Below are positions 4,384 to 33,939 of a stretch of DNA of 38,511 bases, one piece after another. Location of the stretch: NCBI GenBank assembly GCA_005116965.1, contig SWDG01000027.1, positions 247,271-285,781 of the forward strand, written 5' to 3'. The stretch is from Nitrospira sp. (lineage in GTDB: Bacteria; Nitrospirota; Nitrospiria; Nitrospirales; Nitrospiraceae). The position numbers were made by a program, and so were the translations under genes. Positions within the stretch are counted from its first letter, which is position 1, and the number at the start of each line of letters is the position of its first letter. The notes under the pieces were generated by a model. It made no database searches. It was not told the DNA's origin and was given only the letters and a program-made list of their open reading frames with translations.

Positions 4384-4521
4384 GCCCTGCACAGGCTTGG
4401 GTTGAAGCGAAATGCCAATTGGTCGTCAGTGGGCTTTCCCATCACGTCCGTTGACGGCCAGGCCCGGCCCCTGCGGTGCGTGAAAGACGAAGAGGCAGGA
4501 GTTCTGAGAGGAGGCTTGAGT

Positions 4522-5451
4522 ATGACGATTCGATCATTGGTTCTGGCCATCATTGCCGTAAGCGGAATGGTTGTTTCTGGAGTGGTGCGATCGGATGCCG
4601 CCGAGAGTCCGAAAGAATTGAACGCTGCCTGTGAAAAGGGCAAAGCGACCGCCTGCCAATCTCTTGGGCATTTATATCTTAACGGGGAAGGTGTGAAACA
4701 AGATGCCTCCCACGCGGTAGCCCTGTGGCGACGCGCCTGTGACGGCGGTGCTTTAGGCGGCTGTAACAATCTCGGTTTCATGTATGCGAATGGGCGTGGG
4801 GTTGCACAAGACTATGCGCAAGCTGTGGCTCTCTACCAGAAATCCTGTGAGGGTGGAGAGCCTAACGGTTGCAGTAATCTCGGTGACATGTATGCGAATG
4901 GGCGTTGGGTTGCACAAGACTATGCGCAAGCTGTGGCTCTTTACCAGAAAGCCTGTGATGGAGGAGTGCCCCTGGGCTGTTATGGTCTCGGCTTGATGTA
5001 TGAGAATGGGAACGAGGTCCCACGAGATCGTATTCAAGCTGCAACACTCTACCGGAAAGCCTGTGATGGGGGAGTACTAGGGAGCTGTGCTGATCTTGGC
5101 ACGCTGTACGAGGTGGGGTTCGGAGCCCTACAAGATTATACACAAGCTGCGACACTCTACCGGAAAGCCTGTGACGGGGGAGTATTCTCCGGCTGCTCCA
5201 ATCTTGGCACATTGTACGACCGTGGGCTTGGGGTCAAACGAGATACCTTTCAAGCCGCCGACCTCTTTGAGAAAGCGTGCGCGGGTGGGTTTCCTAAGGG
5301 CTGTCACAATCTCGCCATTGCCTACCTGAGAGGAAACGGGAGACCACAGGACGAAGGTGATGCCCTCAGGTATTTCAGGAAGGGGTGCGAACTCAAATTC
5401 CCCAGCAGCTGTAATGATTACGCAAAGCTCAAGAAGGGCACACTCTATTGA
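4522..5451 (+). CDS. secreted Cys-rich Sel1-repeat protein (Hcp-like), 309 aa
   Basis: The ATG at 4522 is preceded by GAGAGGAGG; upstream in-frame starts lack this. A signal peptide covers about residues 1-30, ending near SDAAES. The mature part is about seven Sel1 repeats of 36 residues, each with the core GxxxLGxxY. Eight CX7C pairs (e.g. CEKGKATAC, CDGGALGGC) recur at 36-residue spacing. In Helicobacter Hcp proteins such pairs form a disulfide inside each helical hairpin, so this is a periplasmic or secreted alpha/alpha solenoid for protein-protein contact. It ends with a capping CELKFPSSC motif. The gene is a close duplicate of the one at 8803. Two of its repeats are nearly identical in DNA (see repeat at 4780). 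Confidence 0.88.
   Translation: MTIRSLVLAIIAVSGMVVSGVVRSDAAESPKELNAACEKGKATACQSLGHLYLNGEGVKQDASHAVALWRRACDGGALGGCNNLGFMYANGRGVAQDYAQAVALYQKSCEGGEPNGCSNLGDMYANGRWVAQDYAQAVALYQKACDGGVPLGCYGLGLMYENGNEVPRDRIQAATLYRKACDGGVLGSCADLGTLYEVGFGALQDYTQAATLYRKACDGGVFSGCSNLGTLYDRGLGVKRDTFQAADLFEKACAGGFPKGCHNLAIAYLRGNGRPQDEGDALRYFRKGCELKFPSSCNDYAKLKKGTLY
4780..4951 (+). repeat. near-identical 108-bp-offset internal repeat
   Basis: The 64 bases from 4780 recur from 4888 with only two differences that I can count, at an offset of 108 bases (36 codons, one Sel1 unit). A similar 108-base echo links 5041 and 5149. The low divergence points to recent unit duplication or gene conversion. Confidence 0.75.
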
Positions 5452-5594
5452 AGTCGTCTGCGGGAAGCGGAGCCACCTACATCACCAACCACGCGCGCGT
5501 TCAGCGAGAGCGCCAGATGAGTGCCGCGCAGATCCAGAAGGCGCAGGCCCTGGCGCAGCGCTGTCAGGATACGAAGTATCAGGAGTGCGAGTAG
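5452..5594 (+). pseudogene. fossil C-terminus of a Sel1-repeat protein
   Basis: Directly after the stop of the 309-residue Sel1 gene, a frame without a start codon reads ...SGATYITNHARVQRERQMSA, then AQIQKAQALAQRCQDTKYQE, then CE and stop at 5592-5594. Its end is nearly the same as the end of the 652-residue Sel1 lipoprotein (QKAQELAQRCQDTKYQVCE). At DNA level the last 33 bases match 8302-8334 at 30 positions. The 'ATYITNHARVQRERQMSAAQ' part matches the usual Sel1-protein tail in which the last helices precede an 'M(T/S)xxQIxxAQxLA' segment. This is the remnant of a lost paralogue or of a recombination event. Confidence 0.7.
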
Positions 5595-5665
5595 GGTGTG
5601 CTGAAGAATCAGCCCAACTTCATACAATCTGGACGTGAACCGTCACATAAGAGAGGAGCGCAGCC

Positions 5666-6337
5666 ATGAGTTCGATCATCCGATGCTTCATGGGGGTTTT
5701 CGTTTTGTTAGGCTCAACTGTGAACGGGATGACCCCGGCGCGTGCCGGCACCCTAGACGATTACAACAATACGATCGGTGAGACTGGCTGCAGGTCAATT
5801 CCCTATCCTGGTTTACAGAGAAGCTGCCAAAACCTGGACGTTGACAAGTATTGCAAGAATGAGCCGAGAGCGTGCCAAGGGACCAGAGCCTTGCGACAGA
5901 AAATAGAGACGGATCTTCCGAATGACATTAAGAAACTGGAGTCCGGAATACGAACATTGCAAGAAGCGCTGGCGAAAGCGACGAATGACGCGGAGAAGCG
6001 GAGCATCAGCGACAACATTCGCAATATGGAGAACGAGCTCAACGACAGACACAAGACTCTCTCAAGGATGAACAGTGATCTCCAGGCCGACATCGCGGTC
6101 ATCGACAAACGAATCCAGAATGGAGAACGATGTTCGCGGGAACGCTATGAGATGTTTCAGGTGTTTAAAGAAGTCATCTCCAAGGCAGAAAGTGAGACAG
6201 ACCCTGCGGTCGTCAAACTGGCGAGCCCGCGAATCGTCTATTGGAAGAACGAACAACAAAATCACTACCGGGTAAGGATTGAGGATGTGCAAGTGGCGAT
6301 CGACAAATGTAAAGACTGTCGCGATGGCAAGCAATAG
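5666..6337 (+). CDS. secreted coiled-coil protein, 223 aa
   Basis: The ATG at 5666 has GAGAGGAG about ten bases upstream. Residues 1-27 look like a signal peptide ending in PARA. The mature N-terminal part holds four cysteines (GCRS, RSCQN, KYCKN, RACQG). Residues about 75-160 are charged with heptad-like spacing (IKKLESGIRTLQEAL, NIRNMENELNDRHKTLSRM) and should form a coiled coil or helical hairpin. The C-terminus carries three more cysteines (ERCSR, DKCKDC). I do not recognise the family. It lies between two Sel1 genes and ends 38 bases before the large Sel1 lipoprotein gene, so co-transcription and a shared periplasmic role are plausible. Confidence 0.75.
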   Translation: MSSIIRCFMGVFVLLGSTVNGMTPARAGTLDDYNNTIGETGCRSIPYPGLQRSCQNLDVDKYCKNEPRACQGTRALRQKIETDLPNDIKKLESGIRTLQEALAKATNDAEKRSISDNIRNMENELNDRHKTLSRMNSDLQADIAVIDKRIQNGERCSRERYEMFQVFKEVISKAESETDPAVVKLASPRIVYWKNEQQNHYRVRIEDVQVAIDKCKDCRDGKQ

Positions 6338-6375
6338 CCGGAACTATCTCTCTAGCCCAACGAAAGGGCACGATC

Positions 6376-8334
6376 ATGCAGCTATTTCTTGTTGCTGTCC
6401 TTGGGCTGATGCTCGGAGCCTGTGCAGGCGCGAATCCCCGTGCAGACCACGCCAACACTGTCTCTGAGCGTGGTGACCGAAGCGCGAAGCCGAATTCAGA
6501 GCCGACGAAGCAGGTCGGAGATGGTGTGCCTGAGTCCACAAATGCGGGTGCCCGTTCCCGTGAAGACGACGCGAGATCTGCCTATGTGAGTGGGGACTAC
6601 GCTCGGGCGGCGCCTCTCATGCGCCCCTTTGCAGAGCAGGGTCAAGCCTGGGCGCAGTTCGGTCTGGGGGCGATGTATGAGGATGGGAAAGGCGTCCCGA
6701 AGGACGAGAAACAAGCGGAGGGCTGGTATCGCAAAGCGGCGGCGCAGGGTGACCAACGAGCGCAGGCGAAGCTGGCCCCGATGGATAAAGCTAAGGATCA
6801 GGCTAGGGAGGATGAAGCCAAAGCCGCCTACGCGAAAGGTGACTACGTTCAGGCGGCGGTCCTCACGCGCCCCTTTGCCGAGCAAGGCCACGCTTGGGCA
6901 CAGGACAATCTCGGGTGGATGTATGAGCATGGACAAGGTGTTCCGAAGAACGATCAGGAAGCGGTAGGCTGGGTTTACAAGGCGGCGAAGCAGCGCTACG
7001 CCCATGCACAGAACCATCTCGGGGTGATGATACGCGATGGGAAAGGTGTGCCGCCGGATAAAGAGAAAGCGAAAGGCTGGTTTCGCGTGGCGGCGGAACA
7101 GGGCCACGCCGATGCCCAGAACAATTTGGGAGTGATGGAACGTGATTTGGGGTATGACGTGAAGGTGGCGGTGGACTGGTTTCTCAAGGCGGCGGAACAG
7201 AGGCATGTCGAGGCGCAGTACAATCTGGGTGCAATGTATTACAAAGGTTGTGTTACTGGAAGTTCCAGCGAACGGGATGCATCTGGCAGGTGCTATTTCC
7301 CAAATTACAAGGTCGCCATCAGCTGGTTTCGCAAGGCGGCGGAGCAGGGGTATGCCTTGGGGCAATTCCATCTTGGTTCGATGTATCGGTATGGAATTGG
7401 TGTTGCGAAAGACGAGAAAGAAGCTGTGACCTGGTATCGCAGAGCTGCCGAGCAGGGAAATGCCTTGGGGCAGAACTATTTAGGAACGATGTATCAGCAT
7501 GGAACTGGTGTAACGAAAGACGAAAAAGAAGCCGTTGGGTGGTATCGCAAGGCTGCCGAACAGGACCAGGCCGACGCCCAGGACAATTTGGGGCTCATGT
7601 ATGACTTAGGAAGTGGCGTGCTGCAAGATAAGAAAGAAGCCGTGACTTGGTATCGCAAAGCCGCCAAGCAGGGCAATGCCTGGGGGCAGTACCATCTGGG
7701 GTTTATGTATAGACAAGGGCAAGGTGTGTCGCAAGACTACGATGAAGCAGTGGTGTGGTATCGCGTGGCAGCTGAGCAAGGGAATGCACTCGCACAGAGC
7801 GATCTTGGGTACATGTATCTCAATGGGTTGGGCGTGCCGAAGAATGCCCAGAAAGCCATGGCTTGGTTTCGCAAGGCAGCGGATCAGGGGCATGCGTTGG
7901 GTCAGTTCAATGTGGGTGTGATGTATGACGAGGGATATGGGGTACTCCAGAATTTCAAGGAAGCGCTGGGGTGGTACCACAAGGCGGCGGAGCAGGGTGA
8001 GGTCAATGCGCAGAAGAAACTAGGCGCGATGTATCAGCAGGGTAAGGGTACGGAGCAGGACGTGAAAAAGGCCAGAAAATGGTTTCGTAAGGCGGCGGGG
8101 CAGGGGGATGTTGATGGGATGTTCCAGCTCGCTGAGTCGTATCGAGATGGAAAGGGTGGAGGAAAGGATCACATGCACGCCTATCTGTGGTACAGCCTGG
8201 CAGCCTTAGCGGGAAATCATAGCGCAAAAGAGCAGCGCGATGCGATTGAGAAAAAACTGAGTTCGAAGGAACTTCAAAAGGCTCAAGAGTTGGCACAACG
8301 CTGTCAGGACACAAAGTATCAGGTGTGCGAGTAG
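6376..8334 (+). CDS. Sel1-repeat lipoprotein, 652 aa
   Basis: The N-terminus MQLFLVAVLGLMLGAC has a lipobox (LGAC), so the protein is predicted to be lipidated at Cys16 and membrane-anchored in the periplasm. A Ser/Arg-rich linker follows, then two copies of an 'AY..GDY..A..L.RPFAEQG' entry module and about 13 Sel1 repeats of 36 residues (core AQ..LG.MY..G.GV). One repeat, near residues 290-312, carries an insertion with two cysteines (GCVTGSSSERDASGRC). The C-terminal helices end QRCQDTKYQVCE. Sel1 solenoids are scaffolds for protein complexes, and secreted ones often take part in envelope or host-contact functions. The partner here is unknown. Unlike the 309- and 275-residue Sel1 proteins it lacks CX7C pairs, so it belongs to a different Sel1 subgroup. 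Confidence 0.88.
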   Translation: MQLFLVAVLGLMLGACAGANPRADHANTVSERGDRSAKPNSEPTKQVGDGVPESTNAGARSREDDARSAYVSGDYARAAPLMRPFAEQGQAWAQFGLGAMYEDGKGVPKDEKQAEGWYRKAAAQGDQRAQAKLAPMDKAKDQAREDEAKAAYAKGDYVQAAVLTRPFAEQGHAWAQDNLGWMYEHGQGVPKNDQEAVGWVYKAAKQRYAHAQNHLGVMIRDGKGVPPDKEKAKGWFRVAAEQGHADAQNNLGVMERDLGYDVKVAVDWFLKAAEQRHVEAQYNLGAMYYKGCVTGSSSERDASGRCYFPNYKVAISWFRKAAEQGYALGQFHLGSMYRYGIGVAKDEKEAVTWYRRAAEQGNALGQNYLGTMYQHGTGVTKDEKEAVGWYRKAAEQDQADAQDNLGLMYDLGSGVLQDKKEAVTWYRKAAKQGNAWGQYHLGFMYRQGQGVSQDYDEAVVWYRVAAEQGNALAQSDLGYMYLNGLGVPKNAQKAMAWFRKAADQGHALGQFNVGVMYDEGYGVLQNFKEALGWYHKAAEQGEVNAQKKLGAMYQQGKGTEQDVKKARKWFRKAAGQGDVDGMFQLAESYRDGKGGGKDHMHAYLWYSLAALAGNHSAKEQRDAIEKKLSSKELQKAQELAQRCQDTKYQVCE

Positions 8335-8391
8335 AAGGGCCGTTACCGGACGGCTGTGTGTTCAACCCATCATCACAGGAAGGAGAATCCA

Positions 8392-8712
8392 ATGAAGGCA
8401 CTAATCATGACCGTGATCTCGTTGTTGCTGGCGACGGCGGCTACGGCCGCGCCCATTCAGGACAATGTCGGGGTTGGGGAAGGGCAATGCGAGGTGGTGA
8501 GTGCGGGACAGTATTTTTGCAAGGTCAACGGAAAATGTTACTACTGCACCAAGAACAAAGACATCAATCCGAGCACCGATTGTTACAAAGAAACACAATG
8601 TGCCTCGGCCACTGGAGTCACGAGCACGATGACCCCGCCGATGCGCGCGACCAGGATACCCCGTGAAGTGGAGCGTCTCCAATTGGTGTGGTCAGAAGGC
8701 AAAGGGAAGTAA
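8392..8712 (+). CDS. small secreted Cys-rich protein, 106 aa
   Basis: The ATG at 8392 follows AGGAAGGAG. Residues 1-19 form a Sec signal peptide (MKALIMTVISLLLATAATA). The mature N-terminal half has six cysteines (QCEV, FCKV, KCYYC, DCYK, QCAS), probably three disulfides. The C-terminal third is Cys-free, with Thr/Met/Arg (STMTPPMRATRIPREVERLQ). I do not recognise the family. It sits between the Sel1 lipoprotein gene (ends 8334) and the second Cys-rich Sel1 gene (8803). This repeats the order 'small secreted protein, then Cys-rich Sel1 protein' seen at 4063/4522. Confidence 0.7.
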   Translation: MKALIMTVISLLLATAATAAPIQDNVGVGEGQCEVVSAGQYFCKVNGKCYYCTKNKDINPSTDCYKETQCASATGVTSTMTPPMRATRIPREVERLQLVWSEGKGK

Positions 8713-8718
8713 GTGGGA

Positions 8719-8777
8719 GCCTGCCGCTCATAGACACGCCTGCTTGGTCATGACAACCATAATTGTGGGCGGCAGGC
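8719..8777. repeat. 9-bp inverted repeat in the spacer
   Basis: GCCTGCCGC at 8719-8727 pairs perfectly with GCGGCAGGC at 8769-8777, leaving a 41-base loop just upstream of the Sel1 gene at 8803. It may act in the RNA or be a protein site, and chance is possible. Confidence 0.3.
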
Positions 8778-8802
8778 ACCGGTTGTCGAAAAGGAGTCCT
8801 CC

Positions 8803-9630
8803 ATGACCATTCGCTCGCGGTTTCTCGTGCTCATGGTTCTGAGTGTGCTCGTCTGTGCCAGCGTGAATCTTGCTGACGCCGCCGAGAGTCCGAAACAGCT
8901 GAAAGCTGCCTGTGAGAAAGGCAAGGCAAAAGCCTGTGAATCTCTTGGACATTTATATGTTAACGGGGAAGGCGTGACACAAGATGACTCCCACGCCGTG
9001 GCCCTGTACCGACGCGCTTGTGACGGCGGCGCTTTAGGCGGTTGCTACTCTCTCGGCTGGATGTATGATGAGGGGCGTGGGGTAGCCCAGGACTATGAGC
9101 AAGCCCTGTTACTCTACGGGAAAGCCTGTGACGGGGGAGTGCTCACCGGCTGCCACAATCTCGGCTTGATGTATGCACATGGGCAGGGAGTCCCACAAGA
9201 CTATACGAAAGCCCTAGCACTGTATCGGAAAGCCTGTGAGGGTGGACAGTCTGAAGGCTGCTACAATCTCGGCAATATGTATAGGAATGGGCACGAGGTC
9301 AAACAAGACTACGAACAAGCTGTGGGCCTCTATCGGAAGGCCTGTGCCGGAGGAAATTTCTGGGCCTGCTCTAATCTCGGCATGATGTATGAGGATGGGC
9401 TCGGAATTCCCCGAGACTCTTTCCAAGCTGGAGCATTCTATCGGAAAGCCTGTGAAGGTGGGCAGTCAGCGGGTTGTTACAATCTCGGGCGGATGTATGA
9501 ATACGGAAAAGGAGTGAAACAGGACAATGCTGACGCGCTCACGTATTACGGCAAGGCGTGTGATCTAAAGGATCAAGATGGGTGTGGCGCCTACGCCGAG
9601 GTGAAGACAGGCAGGAAGCCAGGCAGATGA
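8803..9630 (+). CDS. secreted Cys-rich Sel1-repeat protein (Hcp-like), 275 aa
   Basis: The ATG at 8803 has AAAGGAG upstream. A signal peptide (about residues 1-26) ends at NLADAAES. Six Sel1 repeats plus a cap follow, with seven CX7C pairs (CEKGKAKAC, CDGGALGGC, CDGGVLTGC and so on) at 36-residue spacing. It closely resembles the protein at 4522: both mature parts start AAESPK(E/Q)L, and the first two repeats are nearly the same in protein and DNA. This is a duplicated gene with one repeat fewer. The likely role is a disulfide-stabilised periplasmic or secreted scaffold. No enzyme activity should be inferred. Confidence 0.88.
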   Translation: MTIRSRFLVLMVLSVLVCASVNLADAAESPKQLKAACEKGKAKACESLGHLYVNGEGVTQDDSHAVALYRRACDGGALGGCYSLGWMYDEGRGVAQDYEQALLLYGKACDGGVLTGCHNLGLMYAHGQGVPQDYTKALALYRKACEGGQSEGCYNLGNMYRNGHEVKQDYEQAVGLYRKACAGGNFWACSNLGMMYEDGLGIPRDSFQAGAFYRKACEGGQSAGCYNLGRMYEYGKGVKQDNADALTYYGKACDLKDQDGCGAYAEVKTGRKPGR

Positions 9631-9701
9631 GAGTGTGGGCGTCTGCGCGGCGCATGTACTACCTCGTCAATCAGATGCTCGCACAGTAGAGGGAGGGCTT
9701 G

Positions 9702-10847
9702 TTGGAGGGACCGTTGAGCGCTTCTGCAGAGTCGTCTGATTTTTTGACTGCGGTCTATGAAATCGATGGACCAGAACCCACCGCGCGAGCTACCGCTGAG
9801 CGCATTTGTTTCGATCAGACCATTGAAGCCGAGAGCAATCTCCTTCCACCTTCGCTCCAATCCACGATTCTAGGACAACTGGAAGATCTGCGGGCAATTG
9901 CCGGAGGTCGATATCACGCCACTATCCGTTTCCGTGGCGACCTGCTCAGCGGCGAGTGCAGTGATTTGCTCAACGTCTTGTTTGGGACCAGCAGTCTTCG
10001 TGGAGACGTCACGTTGCTGTCGTTCACGATGACGAACGGGCTGCTCTCTTCGTGGCCGGGGCCACGATTTGGGATCGATGGACTCAGGCAGGCAGTCGGT
10101 GTGTCCCATCGCCCACTCCTCTGTGCGGTCCTGAAGCCGTTAGGCCGCACTCCTCAGGAACTCGCCGAATTGGCTGTTCAATTTGTCGAGGGCGGCGTCG
10201 ATATGATCAAGGACGACCAGAGCCTGGTCGATCAACCATGGTGTCCCTTTGAAGAACGAGTGGCCCGCTGTGCCGAAGCCGTTGTGCGAGCAAGCACCCA
10301 TCGAGGAAGGCCCTGCCTGTATTTTGCACATATCAGTGGTTCGGTAGATACGATGCGTCGGCGAGCAACCCAGGCGAAAACCCTGGGTGCATCAGGCCTC
10401 TTGGTCGCGCCCGGCTTGACCGGCTTTGACGCCGTGAGAACGCTTCGGTCAGACGATGAAATTGCTCTGCCGATTGCAAGCCATCCGTCCATGCTTGGTG
10501 CCTTGATCGATCGGGGCGGGAGTGGACTTGCTGCTCCTGTTGTATACGGGCTCCTGCCTCGACTAGTCGGCTCAGACTTCAGCATCTATCCAGCGTTCGG
10601 TTCTGGTTATTCGATGTCGCAACAGGAGTGCGTTTCGGTGGCGGACCAGTGTCGGCAGACTTGGGGGGCTATCAAACCGATAATGCCGGCAATCGGTGGG
10701 CGCATCGGGATTGAGCGCATAGTGGAGCTGGGTTCGGTCTTAGGTCGAGATGCCATCTTTGTCTTAGGAAGCCGCATGCAGCAGAACCCGGAAAATATTG
10801 TCGCGGCGATGAATGCTTTGCATCGAGCGCTGACCGAGTCGTTCTAA
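9702..10847 (+). CDS. RuBisCO-like protein (form IV), 381 aa
   Basis: The start is set at the second of two TTG codons (9699/9702), five bases after GGGAGGG. The frame carries the RuBisCO large-chain fold: LKP (about 145, equivalent of catalytic Lys175), GGVDMIKDDQSLVDQ (about 164-178, the carbamylated-lysine loop), an ISGS segment, SHPSMLGAL with the His294-type residue, and a final IGGRIG phosphate loop. Key carboxylase features are missing. The second lysine of KPKLG is absent, the KDDE/KNDE glutamate is Gln, and loop 6 lacks the GKLEG lysine. It is therefore not a CO2-fixing enzyme. The KDDQ-L-DQ-PF pattern recalls the Rhodospirillum rubrum-type RLPs, which isomerise 5-methylthioribulose-1-phosphate in sulfur salvage; that subgroup call is from memory. 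No methionine-salvage partner lies nearby. Confidence 0.88.
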   Translation: MEGPLSASAESSDFLTAVYEIDGPEPTARATAERICFDQTIEAESNLLPPSLQSTILGQLEDLRAIAGGRYHATIRFRGDLLSGECSDLLNVLFGTSSLRGDVTLLSFTMTNGLLSSWPGPRFGIDGLRQAVGVSHRPLLCAVLKPLGRTPQELAELAVQFVEGGVDMIKDDQSLVDQPWCPFEERVARCAEAVVRASTHRGRPCLYFAHISGSVDTMRRRATQAKTLGASGLLVAPGLTGFDAVRTLRSDDEIALPIASHPSMLGALIDRGGSGLAAPVVYGLLPRLVGSDFSIYPAFGSGYSMSQQECVSVADQCRQTWGAIKPIMPAIGGRIGIERIVELGSVLGRDAIFVLGSRMQQNPENIVAAMNALHRALTESF

Positions 10848-29844: not shown

Positions 29845-30570
29845 ATGAGTTCGTCGATACGAGTTGTGTTTTTCGATGCGGCCGATACCCTCTTTCACGT
29901 GCACGGGTCGGTTGCTGAGATCTACCTTCATCATGCGGTTGCTTTCGGCTTTCCTCAGAAGCCGGACTCGTTAGTCGCGATCAAACACGCGTTCAGCCGA
30001 GCCTTCCGCGAAGCCCCACCGCCGGTTTTTGCGGCAGCTGAACCTACACGACTCAAACACAGTGAACGGCTCTGGTGGTTCGATATCGTGCATCACGTCT
30101 TTTATCGCGTGGGCATGTTCGAGCGATTTGACGAGTTCTTCGATCACGTCTTTCGTGTGTTTGAGGACCATCGATCGTGGCGCCTCTTTCCTGAAACGGC
30201 GTCCACTTTGACTCGGCTCAAGGAACGAGATCTGGAGCTCGGCATCATCTCGAATTTCGATTCCCGCCTCTTTAGCGTGCTGCGCGGACTCGGGATCGCC
30301 GAGGCATTCGACACGGTGACTATTTCGAGTTTGGCCCAAGCCGCAAAACCGGCTCCCCAGATCTTTCACCTCGCGTTGGAGAAGCATGCCGTTGATCCGG
30401 AGGAGGCCCTGCATATCGGTGATAGCCTGCGAGAGGATGCGGAAGGCGCGAAGAAAGCCGGGCTTCACACCGTGCTGTTGGACCGTGACGGAAAACAACA
30501 GGGAGTAGGCATTCGGACCATCAAAAATCTGGAGGAGTTATTCCAGCTTCTAGAGCGGTTCGAGGAGTAG
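29845..30570 (+). CDS. HAD-superfamily hydrolase (HDHD3-like), 241 aa
   Basis: Motif I is FFDAADTLFH, motif II the Ser of GIISNFDSRL, motif III the Lys of AAKPAPQIF, and motif IV LHIGDSLREDAEGAKKAGL. The spacing and helical cap fit a subfamily I phosphatase of the HDHD3/haloacid dehalogenase type acting on a small phosphorylated metabolite; the substrate is unknown. In motif I the second Asp position is Ala-Asp (DAAD), as in relatives that read DAxGT. ATG 29845 is preferred on homology, although its ribosome binding site is weak. The 3' end overlaps the convergent sirtuin gene by 21 bases. Confidence 0.85.
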   Translation: MSSSIRVVFFDAADTLFHVHGSVAEIYLHHAVAFGFPQKPDSLVAIKHAFSRAFREAPPPVFAAAEPTRLKHSERLWWFDIVHHVFYRVGMFERFDEFFDHVFRVFEDHRSWRLFPETASTLTRLKERDLELGIISNFDSRLFSVLRGLGIAEAFDTVTISSLAQAAKPAPQIFHLALEKHAVDPEEALHIGDSLREDAEGAKKAGLHTVLLDRDGKQQGVGIRTIKNLEELFQLLERFEE

Positions 30571-31284
30571 CGGCACAAGCTCTTTTGCACGACCCTGAAG
30601 TGAGATGTCCACCAGCGACGACTGTGGAGTGGGATCGAGGTTGATCTCGGCAACGAAGGCGCCGGCCTCTTTAGCAACGGATGCGAACCCTGCAGCCGGA
30701 TAAACAACGCCGGATGTGCCGATGATGAGCAAGATGTCACAGTGCTTAAGTGCCCTGGAGCAAGCGTCGAGATCGTCAGGAGACAAGGATTCTCCGAACC
30801 AGACAATATGGGGCCTGAGCAACGATCCACAGCGAGGACAAGACGGAAGAATGGCAATCGGCACATCGCGGTTGTTTTCCACCACGCCACAGCCGGTACA
30901 GCGAACCTTCCAGATATTGCCATGAATCTCCGAGAGTTTCTGTGAGCCGGCGTCTCGATGCAGCCCATCCACATTTTGAGTCATCAGCCAAAAGTTCAGA
31001 CAGCGGCGTTCCAGTTCGACCATAGCTTTGTGTGCATTGTTTGGCTGTTTCGTGGCGATCAGTTCGCGCCGCCAGTTGTACCATTCCCACACGAGGCGAG
31101 GATCCCGCTCGAAGGCTTCGGGTGTCGCCAGGTCCTCGGCGCGAAAATTCTTCCACAAACCGTCCGCGCCGCGAAAGGTCGGTACACCGCTGTCGGCTGA
31201 GATCCCAGCACCGGTGAGAACGGTGATAGCCTCAGCAGCAGCCAGCTTTTCTTTCAAGAGTCCGAGATTGGATCCATGAGTCAT
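30550..31284 (-). CDS. NAD-dependent protein deacylase, Sir2 family
   Basis: This 244-residue sirtuin removes acyl groups from lysines using NAD. Visible motifs are TGAGISADSGVPTFRG, TQNVDGLHRDAGS with the catalytic His, the zinc ligands CTGC...CPRC, HIVWFGESL, and GTSGVVYPAA. The segment EWYNWRREL has the Tyr and Arg, three residues apart, that in SIRT5/CobB-type sirtuins bind acidic acyl chains, so desuccinylase activity as well as deacetylase activity is plausible. Two in-frame ATGs (31290, 31284) are possible. It is divergent from the PanE-like gene and converges on the HAD gene. Confidence 0.92.
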   Translation of the reverse strand: MTHGSNLGLLKEKLAAAEAITVLTGAGISADSGVPTFRGADGLWKNFRAEDLATPEAFERDPRLVWEWYNWRRELIATKQPNNAHKAMVELERRCLNFWLMTQNVDGLHRDAGSQKLSEIHGNIWKVRCTGCGVVENNRDVPIAILPSCPRCGSLLRPHIVWFGESLSPDDLDACSRALKHCDILLIIGTSGVVYPAAGFASVAKEAGAFVAEINLDPTPQSSLVDISLQGRAKELVPLLLEPL

Positions 31285-31374: not shown

Positions 31375-32721
31375 ATGAAACAGATCTTATTCGTGGGTGC
31401 CGGGTCGGTCGGCGGATTCTTTGGGGCACACCTGGCGAAGAACAACCCCAATGTCTCCTTTCTTCTCAGACCAAGGACACTTGAAGCAGTCAAGCGGAAT
31501 GGGCTGACCATTCGTAGTGCCGGTGGTTCGTTCACCGTTCGGCCACCGGTTGCATCCGATGCTCGAGAGCTACCGAAGCCAGACCTCATTGTTCTGGGAG
31601 TGAAAGTCTACGACCTCGATGAGGTGATGGACCAGATCGAACCCATACTCACGGATAAGACAGTGCTGCTGACATTGCAGAACGGGATCGATACCGAAGA
31701 CCGACTCATCGCACGAATCCAGAGGGATTGCGTCGTGGGCGGAGTCGCGTACATCTATTCCAAAATCACCGAGCCGGGCGTGATCGACCATTATAAGAAG
31801 GGAGCTGTCGCCATCGGTGAACTGATGGGCCATGAGAGCGAACGACTTCTCGCCATCCATGACCTGTTTGCCTCAGCAGGCATTCCTTGCCACCTTTCTA
31901 AAGACCTTCGCCGCAGTAAATGGGAGAAGATGTGTTGGAACTGCGTCTTCAATCCGATCACGGTGCTCATTGATGATCGTGTGGCAAAAGCGTTAGATCA
32001 TCCGGAGATGACGGGTGTGATTCGGCAGATTGTCGGAGAATGCGCGGCAATCTCGGCTGCGCTGAAGGTACCGTTGCCGCTCGATATGCCGGAACGAGTG
32101 GTCAAGGCCTCGCAAGAGATTCGCGACATCCATACGTCTATGTACGATGATTGGAAGGCGGGGCGGCGGACGGAGATCGACTCTTTAAACGGGTTCATTG
32201 TGGAGCAGGGTCGCAAATTAGGCATACCCACTCCTGTCAACGAAGCCCTGACGGCGATGATCAAGACGATCACCGAGAAAGAACAGACCGGCTCAGGGCG
32301 GGTCCGAATCGAAGGCGCCGTCGTTCAACCCATCTCATTTGACCATGCCGCCATCGCGGCCTTGCCTGTCGAACATCAGCTCGATATTGCCACCGTGATG
32401 CCTGGCATGAAAGGACGGGGGATTCGGTTGAAGGGGCTCCTCGATGTTCCGGCTTTGGCGATTGAGGCGGATCACATCGCATTTCATGCAGCAGACGGAA
32501 CGTACTCAGCCTGTCTCACGCTCCAGCAAGCCAGAGACCATGGAGTGCTTGTGTACGAGCTTGATGGAGCACCGCTGCCTGATACCAAAGGTGGTCCGTT
32601 CCGCCTGGTCACGCCGGGACTCGGGGATCTCTGTGCCAATGTGAAAGGGGTCACACGAATTGAAATCACCAAGGGGCCTGGCCGGGATACGAGGCAAACC
32701 ACCTGTCCTCCGGTCTCGTGA
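31375..32721 (+). CDS. ketopantoate reductase-like protein fused to a Moco-fold domain
   Basis: The 448-residue product has two parts. Residues 1 to ~310 are a PanE/ApbA enzyme: GAGSVGG nucleotide site (8-14), LQNGID, catalytic-type Lys in RRSKWEKMCWNCVFNP, and GRRTEIDSLNGFIVEQG, GIPTPVN. PanE reduces 2-dehydropantoate with NADPH for CoA synthesis. Residues ~315-435 match the sulfite-oxidase-type molybdopterin-binding fold: ISFDHAAIAALP, GRGIRLKGLLD, HIAFHAADGTYSACLTL, VLVYELDGAPLPDTKGGPFR, LVTPG, and VKGVTRIEI. The cysteine that binds Mo in true oxidases is absent from the expected segment (HQLDIATVMPGMKG). The ATG has GAGG seven bases upstream. No stop or frameshift separates the parts, so this is a real in-frame fusion. 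The enzyme's true substrate may differ from ketopantoate. Confidence 0.85.
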   Translation: MKQILFVGAGSVGGFFGAHLAKNNPNVSFLLRPRTLEAVKRNGLTIRSAGGSFTVRPPVASDARELPKPDLIVLGVKVYDLDEVMDQIEPILTDKTVLLTLQNGIDTEDRLIARIQRDCVVGGVAYIYSKITEPGVIDHYKKGAVAIGELMGHESERLLAIHDLFASAGIPCHLSKDLRRSKWEKMCWNCVFNPITVLIDDRVAKALDHPEMTGVIRQIVGECAAISAALKVPLPLDMPERVVKASQEIRDIHTSMYDDWKAGRRTEIDSLNGFIVEQGRKLGIPTPVNEALTAMIKTITEKEQTGSGRVRIEGAVVQPISFDHAAIAALPVEHQLDIATVMPGMKGRGIRLKGLLDVPALAIEADHIAFHAADGTYSACLTLQQARDHGVLVYELDGAPLPDTKGGPFRLVTPGLGDLCANVKGVTRIEITKGPGRDTRQTTCPPVS

Positions 32722-33174: not shown

Positions 33175-33939
33175 ATGCCTGCTGAGGTCGGTCGCGTTGT
33201 TGCGCTTGGCGCCAGCAATCTGACACGTGGTTTCCAGACCATCGTCTCGACGTCTCGATCAGTGTGGGGACCGGACGTCGAAGTACTGGCGGCGCTTGGG
33301 CATGGGCGATCATATGGAGCTCCGAGCAGAATCGTTTTTCGCACCTTGCCCGGCATTCTCAAGTCAGGTCTGTGGGATGAGTTGGAGCGGCGACCGAAAG
33401 TTGTAACGAGGGCGCTTGTAACTGATGTCGGTAATGACATCTTGTACGGTTTCTCTGTAGCGCGAGCGCTTGGATGGGTTGAGGAGGCGCTCGTTCGCCT
33501 GAGCCGTGTGACGAATGACATCGTGCTTACAGACTTGCCTCTTGCCAGTATTCACCGTTTGTCAAACCGGAAGTTTTTGGCGTTTCGTTCAGTGTTGGTG
33601 CCGTCCTGCCGGCTGTCTCTTTCTCAAGTCATCGACAGATCGGAGCGAGTCACCGAAGGGCTGGCGAAGTTGTCTGCTAGGTACGGCGCTAAGTTCTTTG
33701 AACTTCATCCTGCGTGGTACGGGTTTGATCCCATCCACGTGCGCCCTTCCCAATGGCGTCAGGCCTGGCAGCAGATTCTCGGGGCTCAGCCTGAGGCGAA
33801 GCCGGGTAGTGGATCAACGATTGAGAGCGTGAAGCTCTACTTCATGCGCCCCGAACGCCGATGGCTGTTCGGCGTGGAGCAGGTCACGCCGCAGTCCGGT
33901 ACCGTACTCCGATCAGGTGGGCAGGTATGGCTGTATTGA
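33175..33939 (+). CDS. SGNH/GDSL-type hydrolase-like protein, 254 aa
   Basis: The catalytic blocks of the SGNH fold are visible: LGASNLTRGF with the nucleophile Ser14, TDVGNDILYG (block III Gly-Asn-Asp), and GFDPIHVRPSQW with the Asp-x-x-His pair. The family includes esterases, lipases and carbohydrate acetyl-esterases; the substrate here is unknown. No signal peptide is present, so it is probably cytoplasmic. ATG 33175 has only a weak GCTGGG upstream. It lies 44 bases after the membrane-anchored protein on the same strand. Confidence 0.8.
   Translation: MPAEVGRVVALGASNLTRGFQTIVSTSRSVWGPDVEVLAALGHGRSYGAPSRIVFRTLPGILKSGLWDELERRPKVVTRALVTDVGNDILYGFSVARALGWVEEALVRLSRVTNDIVLTDLPLASIHRLSNRKFLAFRSVLVPSCRLSLSQVIDRSERVTEGLAKLSARYGAKFFELHPAWYGFDPIHVRPSQWRQAWQQILGAQPEAKPGSGSTIESVKLYFMRPERRWLFGVEQVTPQSGTVLRSGGQVWLY

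Follow-up and report, generated by a model that had tools for sequence, protein, structure and literature searches.

The window analyzed here, a 38,511-nucleotide stretch of a Nitrospira sp. genome, carries a gene that joins a complete ketopantoate reductase (KPR, PanE/ApbA) to a domain with the sulfite oxidase (SUOX) fold from which the molybdenum-binding cysteine has been lost. The fusion is conserved, the active site of its PanE half is intact, and the fold of the extra domain is shared with the SUOX Moco enzymes and with the pterin-binding protein PruR. We see close to an even chance that it is a working KPR with a PruR-like pterin-sensing module which tunes or partners the enzyme. A sequence-only reading of the window had described one uninterrupted 448-residue frame of this composition and knew of no standard enzyme with such a layout. 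Pfam, NCBIfam, and a structure model bear out the description, and the PanE-SUOX fusion is likewise undescribed in the literature that we searched. Our searches found nothing that joins ketopantoate reductase with Nitrospira or with Oxidored_molyb; the terms 2-dehydropantoate 2-reductase, Nitrospira, and molybdopterin were never joined, and ketopantoate reductase with pterin led to unrelated papers only. The features of the locus are listed in Table 1.

Table 1. Features of the fused gene and its neighbors (positions in the window)
Feature	Position	Strand	Basis or remark
HAD hydrolase (REG-2-like, TIGR02252)	29845..30570	+	
Divergent CobB-type sirtuin	30550..31284	-	Conserved neighbor of the fusion in the genus
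Fused gene: ketopantoate reductase + cysteine-less SUOX-fold (PruR-like) domain	31375..32721	+	One open frame, 448 aa
PanE/ApbA reductase half, residues 1-300	31375..32274	+	Pfam, TIGR00745, E. coli PanE alignment
Interdomain linker, residues 301-308	32275..32298	+	pLDDT down to 66
SUOX-fold / PruR-like domain, residues 309-433	32299..32673	+	Pfam, profile comparison, structure model
Residues 340-343 (TVMP), position of SUOX Mo-ligating cysteine / PruR Trp	32392..32403	+	
D374-Y377, aligned with PruR pterin-associated N102 and Y104	32494..32505	+	
Signature GGPFRLVTPGLGDLCANVK, including G406, G407, R410, C420, K424	32590..32646	+	89 distinct sequences

All three Pfam families which the sequence-only reading had proposed to look for matched the fusion protein above the cutoff, namely ApbA (residues 4 to 150, 5e-37), ApbA_C (residues 177 to 299, 3.8e-33), and Oxidored_molyb (PF00174; residues 348 to 435, 2e-14, or 8e-16 with the C-terminal part alone). 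The NCBIfam model TIGR00745 (apbA_panE) scored 262.8 bits over residues 4 to 301 of the reductase half, against a cutoff of 141.35. The same fusion with the same neighbors is present in L107 (Nitrospira sp.). In the alignment with E. coli PanE, residues R32, K77, N103, K185, N189, N193, S255, and E267 are all identical to R31, K72, N98, K176, N180, N184, S244, and E256, respectively, which we take to be catalytic and NADPH-site positions. The fusion is the sole ApbA_C protein in the genome and panB, panC, and ilvC are present, so it is probably the cell's ketopantoate reductase. Judged by its sequence, the reductase half would act on ketopantoate, and we are largely confident that the fusion is a functional KPR. 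The earlier suggestion that the second domain may mark a non-CoA substrate was left without support, given the conservation of the checked PanE active-site residues and the presence of panB and panC. The idea of an essential, sole ketopantoate reductase was weakened by relatives in which no PanE was detected (G048, G042, G036, G039, G246, G266, and G204); these keep panB, panC, and ilvC, and members of the order can therefore make pantothenate without the reductase. It has been reported that IlvC stands in for PanE in Salmonella (PMC5965847).

The extra domain starts at about residue 309 and spans about 125 residues in the structure model. AlphaFold2, supplied with 21 aligned sequences from the window and the loci, predicted a SUOX fold for the domain with a pLDDT of 91.3 and a pTM of 0.86. 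The comparison of residues 310 to 440 with sulfite oxidase, which the sequence-only reading had put forward as a check, thus came out in its favor: the highest structural scores went to SoxC (2xts, Z of 17.5), SorA (2blf, Z of 17.2), and plant sulfite oxidase (Z of 17.0). PruR (7kos/7kou) is matched with a Z of 14.3 and 2.2 Å over 120 residues. By sequence, the domain profile finds PruR at 1e-8 (7kom) and 0.005 (7kos), and profile-profile comparison of the two gives a probability of 96 and an E value of 5e-9. In the full-length model (pTM of 0.69), confidence dips at the linker and the orientation of the domains is unsettled, so that a pocket shared with the reductase cannot be claimed.

At the site of the Mo cysteine, the domain reads DIATVMPG, while the phylum's own SUOX enzymes have the cysteine there, as LMCIDT, LECAGN, or LTCIDN (L118 to L123). 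The loss of this residue, which had been noticed from the sequence, is thereby confirmed, and it rules out a standard Moco enzyme. The cysteine is also present in other short PF00174 proteins of the phylum (FHCVT or MKCVE). One such family, of about 225 to 250 aa (L127, L128, L131, and L132), has the intact motif FHCVT, and its members are probably true Moco proteins. Among 89 distinct domain sequences, position 340, with which the PruR Trp aligns, is Thr in 58, with Ala or Val next. None of the 89 varies at G406, G407, R410, or K424, and 88 of them have C420. This cysteine is specific to the domain family of the fusion and is equally invariant in standalone homologues and in those fused to a CbiX-like segment. 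In the alignment, R410 and K424 fall on two SUOX enzyme residues, the conserved Arg and the VK-Lys, which are presumably pterin phosphate contacts; the PruR sequences that we saw have no Arg equivalent to R410. HMMER/hhalign alignment to N102 and Y104 of PruR places D374 (82/89) and Y/F377 (89/89) at these positions. Pterin binding by PruR, which is without the Mo cysteine, has been linked to N102 and Y104, and Asp occurs naturally at the N102 position in PruR groups C and D (PMC13259868).

About 30 genomes of the genus share the whole fused frame at 75 to 97% identity, and other families of the order have it at 52 to 62% identity, so that it is neither chance nor a local error. A phylum-wide search found a strong domain match in 121 genomes of the order, 114 of which have it in frames of at least 447 aa. 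The remaining seven are G302, G331, G033, G370, G076, G048, and G042, with contig ends in G331, G033, and G370. The same architecture, which the sequence-only reading had wished to see in other genomes, is thus widespread in the order. That reading had also considered homologues ending near residue 310 with a frameshift here, and a frameshift or assembly artifact is ruled out by the frame conserved across the genus, the other families, and these 114 genomes. The pattern scan of contigs was insensitive, missing most Nitrospira fusions, and fusions in other phyla are possible. In G302 (L089), an in-frame TAA stands at linker codon 303, which is either real or a base-calling error, and both halves are about 97% identical.

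Two genomes inside the order, G048 and G042, have the domain without the reductase half. The G048 domain is nested in the fused sequences of its own genus (tree support of 99/98 and 97/78) and is still near the sirtuin gene; since it branches within the fused clade, PanE was lost there. Between the G048 and G058 domains, dN is 0.22 with dS saturated, and this modest amino acid change points to continued selection. G042 is domain-only like G048, with a weak tree position. In G040, PanE (L042, 4650 to 5609) has lost the domain in frame and preserves the fusion's C-terminal tail, GPGQDTK. The halves are thus separable, and their union is retained in nearly all members of the order. The module cannot be solely an allosteric tail of PanE, since G048 and G042 have kept it in the absence of the enzyme. 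Outside the order, in Candidatus Manganitrophus-related genomes, the domain has a gene of its own, of about 170 to 195 codons. In L081, L086, and L101, this gene is separated from panE by 2 to 4 kb, an interval that contains the HAD gene. Read by eye, standalone homologues begin right at the fold with no apparent signal. The standalone domains outside the order (L081 to L088, L100, and L104) have His-rich C-terminal tails (GHSHEGHDHDH...) not found in the fused form, which suggest metal binding.

We further looked at the gene neighborhoods. In several families, and in genomes of the Manganitrophales type as well, the HAD hydrolase gene neighbors PanE or the fusion, and the sirtuin gene is also near the fusion in two other families (G058, G037, and others). 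The adjacent sirtuin pointed out by the sequence-only reading has therefore held up as a conserved neighbor, found also near the G048 standalone domain, but not as a functional link. The proximity of coaX, which had been offered as another link, is genus-level synteny only: the gene is about 8 to 10 kb from the fusion in the genus (L137 and L139; G023 and G021) and was not found within about 14 kb of it in G055, G058, and G037, on which grounds a coaX operon link was rejected outside the genus. The sirtuin link is older than this synteny. Downstream of the fusion in many Nitrospira genomes is a 254-aa open reading frame (33175 to 33939 in the window) that looks SGNH-hydrolase-like by eye and has no Pfam or NCBIfam match. 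Elsewhere, the window encodes a RuBisCO-like protein of 382 aa (9699 to 10847; PF00016, 4e-24) and a cluster of Sel1-repeat proteins (4402 to 9630), with 11 repeats in 6376 to 8334 and neighbors that are alike by eye.

The gene neighbors of the homologues include folate and Moco genes. In six Latescibacterota/Gemmatimonadota loci, the domain gene is downstream of DHFR and/or ThyA, as identified by Pfam in L110, L113, L116, and L117 and by eye in L111 and L115; these contexts are related to each other and may count as one event. In L109 to L117, the domain is preceded by a segment that is CbiX-like or degenerate, and the run of genes that follows DHFR/ThyA is conserved. We do not claim a CbiX chelatase function for this N terminus, as it is only weakly matched (1e-4 to 3e-6) and the usual His motif was not seen. 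In L088, a standalone domain gene lies on the same strand as MoaD-MoaE and MoaC genes and in one run with them. Folate and molybdopterin synthesis are both pterin pathways, and these neighbors, together with the fold, are the main reason for proposing a pterin-type ligand.

The sequence-only reading had allowed that the second domain could bind a ligand. This prediction is now better founded, with PruR as the nearest non-enzymatic relative whose function is known and with folate or molybdopterin genes next to domain homologues. We propose that a cytosolic, NADPH-dependent PanE is connected by a short linker to a ligand-binding, cysteine-less SUOX-fold module, which would most likely bind a reduced pterin or folate-type metabolite and would perform no molybdenum chemistry. 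The ligand is probably phosphorylated, because the Arg and Lys aligned with the Moco-enzyme Arg and VK-Lys are invariant; R410 and K424, with D374/Y377 and with T340 in place of Trp, suggest a phosphorylated pterin rather than free monapterin. The bound ligand would tune the reductase or gather partners according to pterin/one-carbon supply, and pantothenate synthesis would thereby be linked to the one-carbon pool used by PanB. The latter enzyme, acting in the step before PanE, consumes 5,10-methylene-tetrahydrofolate (PMC7770189). We find it likely that the module binds a small ligand, somewhat likely that this ligand is a pterin, and rather less than evenly probable that it acts on the reductase. 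The identity of the ligand and the regulatory coupling are inferred. Several observations stand against this reading: the PruR Trp is not conserved (T340), neither the periplasmic location of PruR nor its action with DcpA-type regulators applies here, and Moco enzymes give higher structural Z scores than PruR does. The survival of the module without PanE, the PanE-less relatives that keep panB, panC, and ilvC, and the possible single origin of the Latescibacterota contexts also weigh against it.

The main rival explanation gives each half a job of its own and sees in the fusion no more than co-expression or tethering. The module would then bind, carry, or sense a pterin or molybdopterin independently, without allostery. 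The module gene would have lain near panE and then fused with it, which is in keeping with L081, L086, and L101, where a standalone domain gene has panE and the HAD gene within 2 to 4 kb. The domain's outliving PanE in G048 and G042 and PanE's outliving the domain in G040 also favor this explanation. However, the fusion kept in 114 of the 121 genomes suggests selection for the physical link, and we consider separate jobs unlikely, if still a serious contender.

In another explanation, the module senses CoA, or a different product of the pathway, for feedback, and C420 would form a disulfide or thioester reversibly. Type III pantothenate kinases are, to our knowledge, not CoA-inhibited, and because the genome has coaX (type III), such a sensor would replace the feedback on pantothenate kinase. 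The inhibition of an archaeal KPR by CoA (PMC6650551), the near-invariance of C420, and the presence of coaX in the window speak for this idea. It is nevertheless improbable, since C420 is no less invariant in homologues that are not joined to PanE, the known ligands of the fold are pterins, and PanE-less genomes keep the module.

We give still less credence to the module binding Moco or molybdopterin without the usual cysteine, either as a Moco carrier or as an enzyme with C420 as a relocated ligand. The top structural scores to Moco enzymes, the retained Arg and VK-Lys, and the moa gene run of L088 agree with such binding, but both the Mo cysteine and the motif histidine (HGFP) are lost, no other SUOX domains are present, and the other PF00174 proteins of the phylum keep their cysteine. 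Moreover, C420 is in the CANVK loop, which we take to be near the pterin phosphate rather than Mo in sulfite oxidase structures. A ligand-free structural or dimerization domain, with which the unsettled domain orientation of the model would be compatible, has the least to recommend it and is very improbable, as the polar pocket-type signature (GGPxRL...CANVK, D374, and Y/F377) is near-invariant over several phyla, beyond the needs of a scaffold.

The permanent joining of PanE to such a module suggests, short of proof, that vitamin B5/CoA synthesis is wired to pterin (folate-type) supply in nitrite-oxidizing Nitrospira and its relatives. We can speculate further, with considerable doubt, that cytosolic enzyme-fused SUOX-like sensors couple CoA synthesis directly to pterin/folate supply in at least Nitrospirota and Latescibacterota/Gemmatimonadota, where a pterin would control the attached or neighboring enzyme, possibly with C420 as a redox switch. 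SUOX-fold pterin signaling is already known from the periplasmic PruR systems of Proteobacteria. If our proposal is true, such signaling would extend to intracellular metabolism in widespread nitrite oxidizers, would hint at how the folate and CoA pathways are balanced in slow-growing Nitrospira, and would explain a class of proteins to which family models give the name of molybdopterin oxidoreductases despite the missing Mo-holding residue.

Compared with known systems, the fusion shares with E. coli PanE (EC 1.1.1.169; PF02558 and PF08546; PDB 1ks9 and 2ofp) the full length, both domains, and all checked residues. It differs from known KPRs in its extra C-terminal module of 146 residues; the solved KPR chains that we found have 291 to 335 residues without the module. 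With the CoA-regulated KPR of the archaeon Thermococcus kodakarensis, there is a precedent for control of CoA synthesis at this step (PMC6650551); its matched PDB relatives, unlike the fusion, each consist of a KPR chain alone, with no further domain. With the SUOX Moco enzymes of PF00174 (SoxC, SorA, SorT, MsrP/YedY, and sulfite oxidase), the module shares the fold, with Z up to 17.5, and the GxPxRLxxPG...xNVK motif with its Arg and Lys, but it has lost the Mo cysteine and the motif histidine and has gained the invariant C420. The C-terminal Mo-co dimerization domain, which is not universal in the SUOX family, gave no Pfam match, and the protein ends about 15 residues past the fold. PruR is a periplasmic pterin-binding protein of Proteobacteria, with structures from Agrobacterium (Atu3496; 7kos/7kou), Vibrio (7kom and 7kp2), and Klebsiella (7rkb). 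Both have a cysteine-less SUOX fold of about 125 to 150 aa (Z of 13 to 14, profile E value of 5e-9), and D374 and Y/F377 take the places of N102 and Y104. The differences are that Trp70 of PruR is T340 here, and that R410, K424, and C420 are missing in PruR. PruR is periplasmic with a secretion signal, whereas the fusion is cytosolic, has no signal peptide, and is joined to an enzyme. PruR works with DcpA-type regulators; no DcpA- or DTB-type regulator gene was found at the fusion, where the neighbors are the sirtuin, the HAD hydrolase, and the 254-aa open reading frame. The Trp, location, and partner features of PruR and the cysteine of the Moco enzymes are thus not shared by the fusion, and its likeness to PruR lies in the fold and probably in the ligand.
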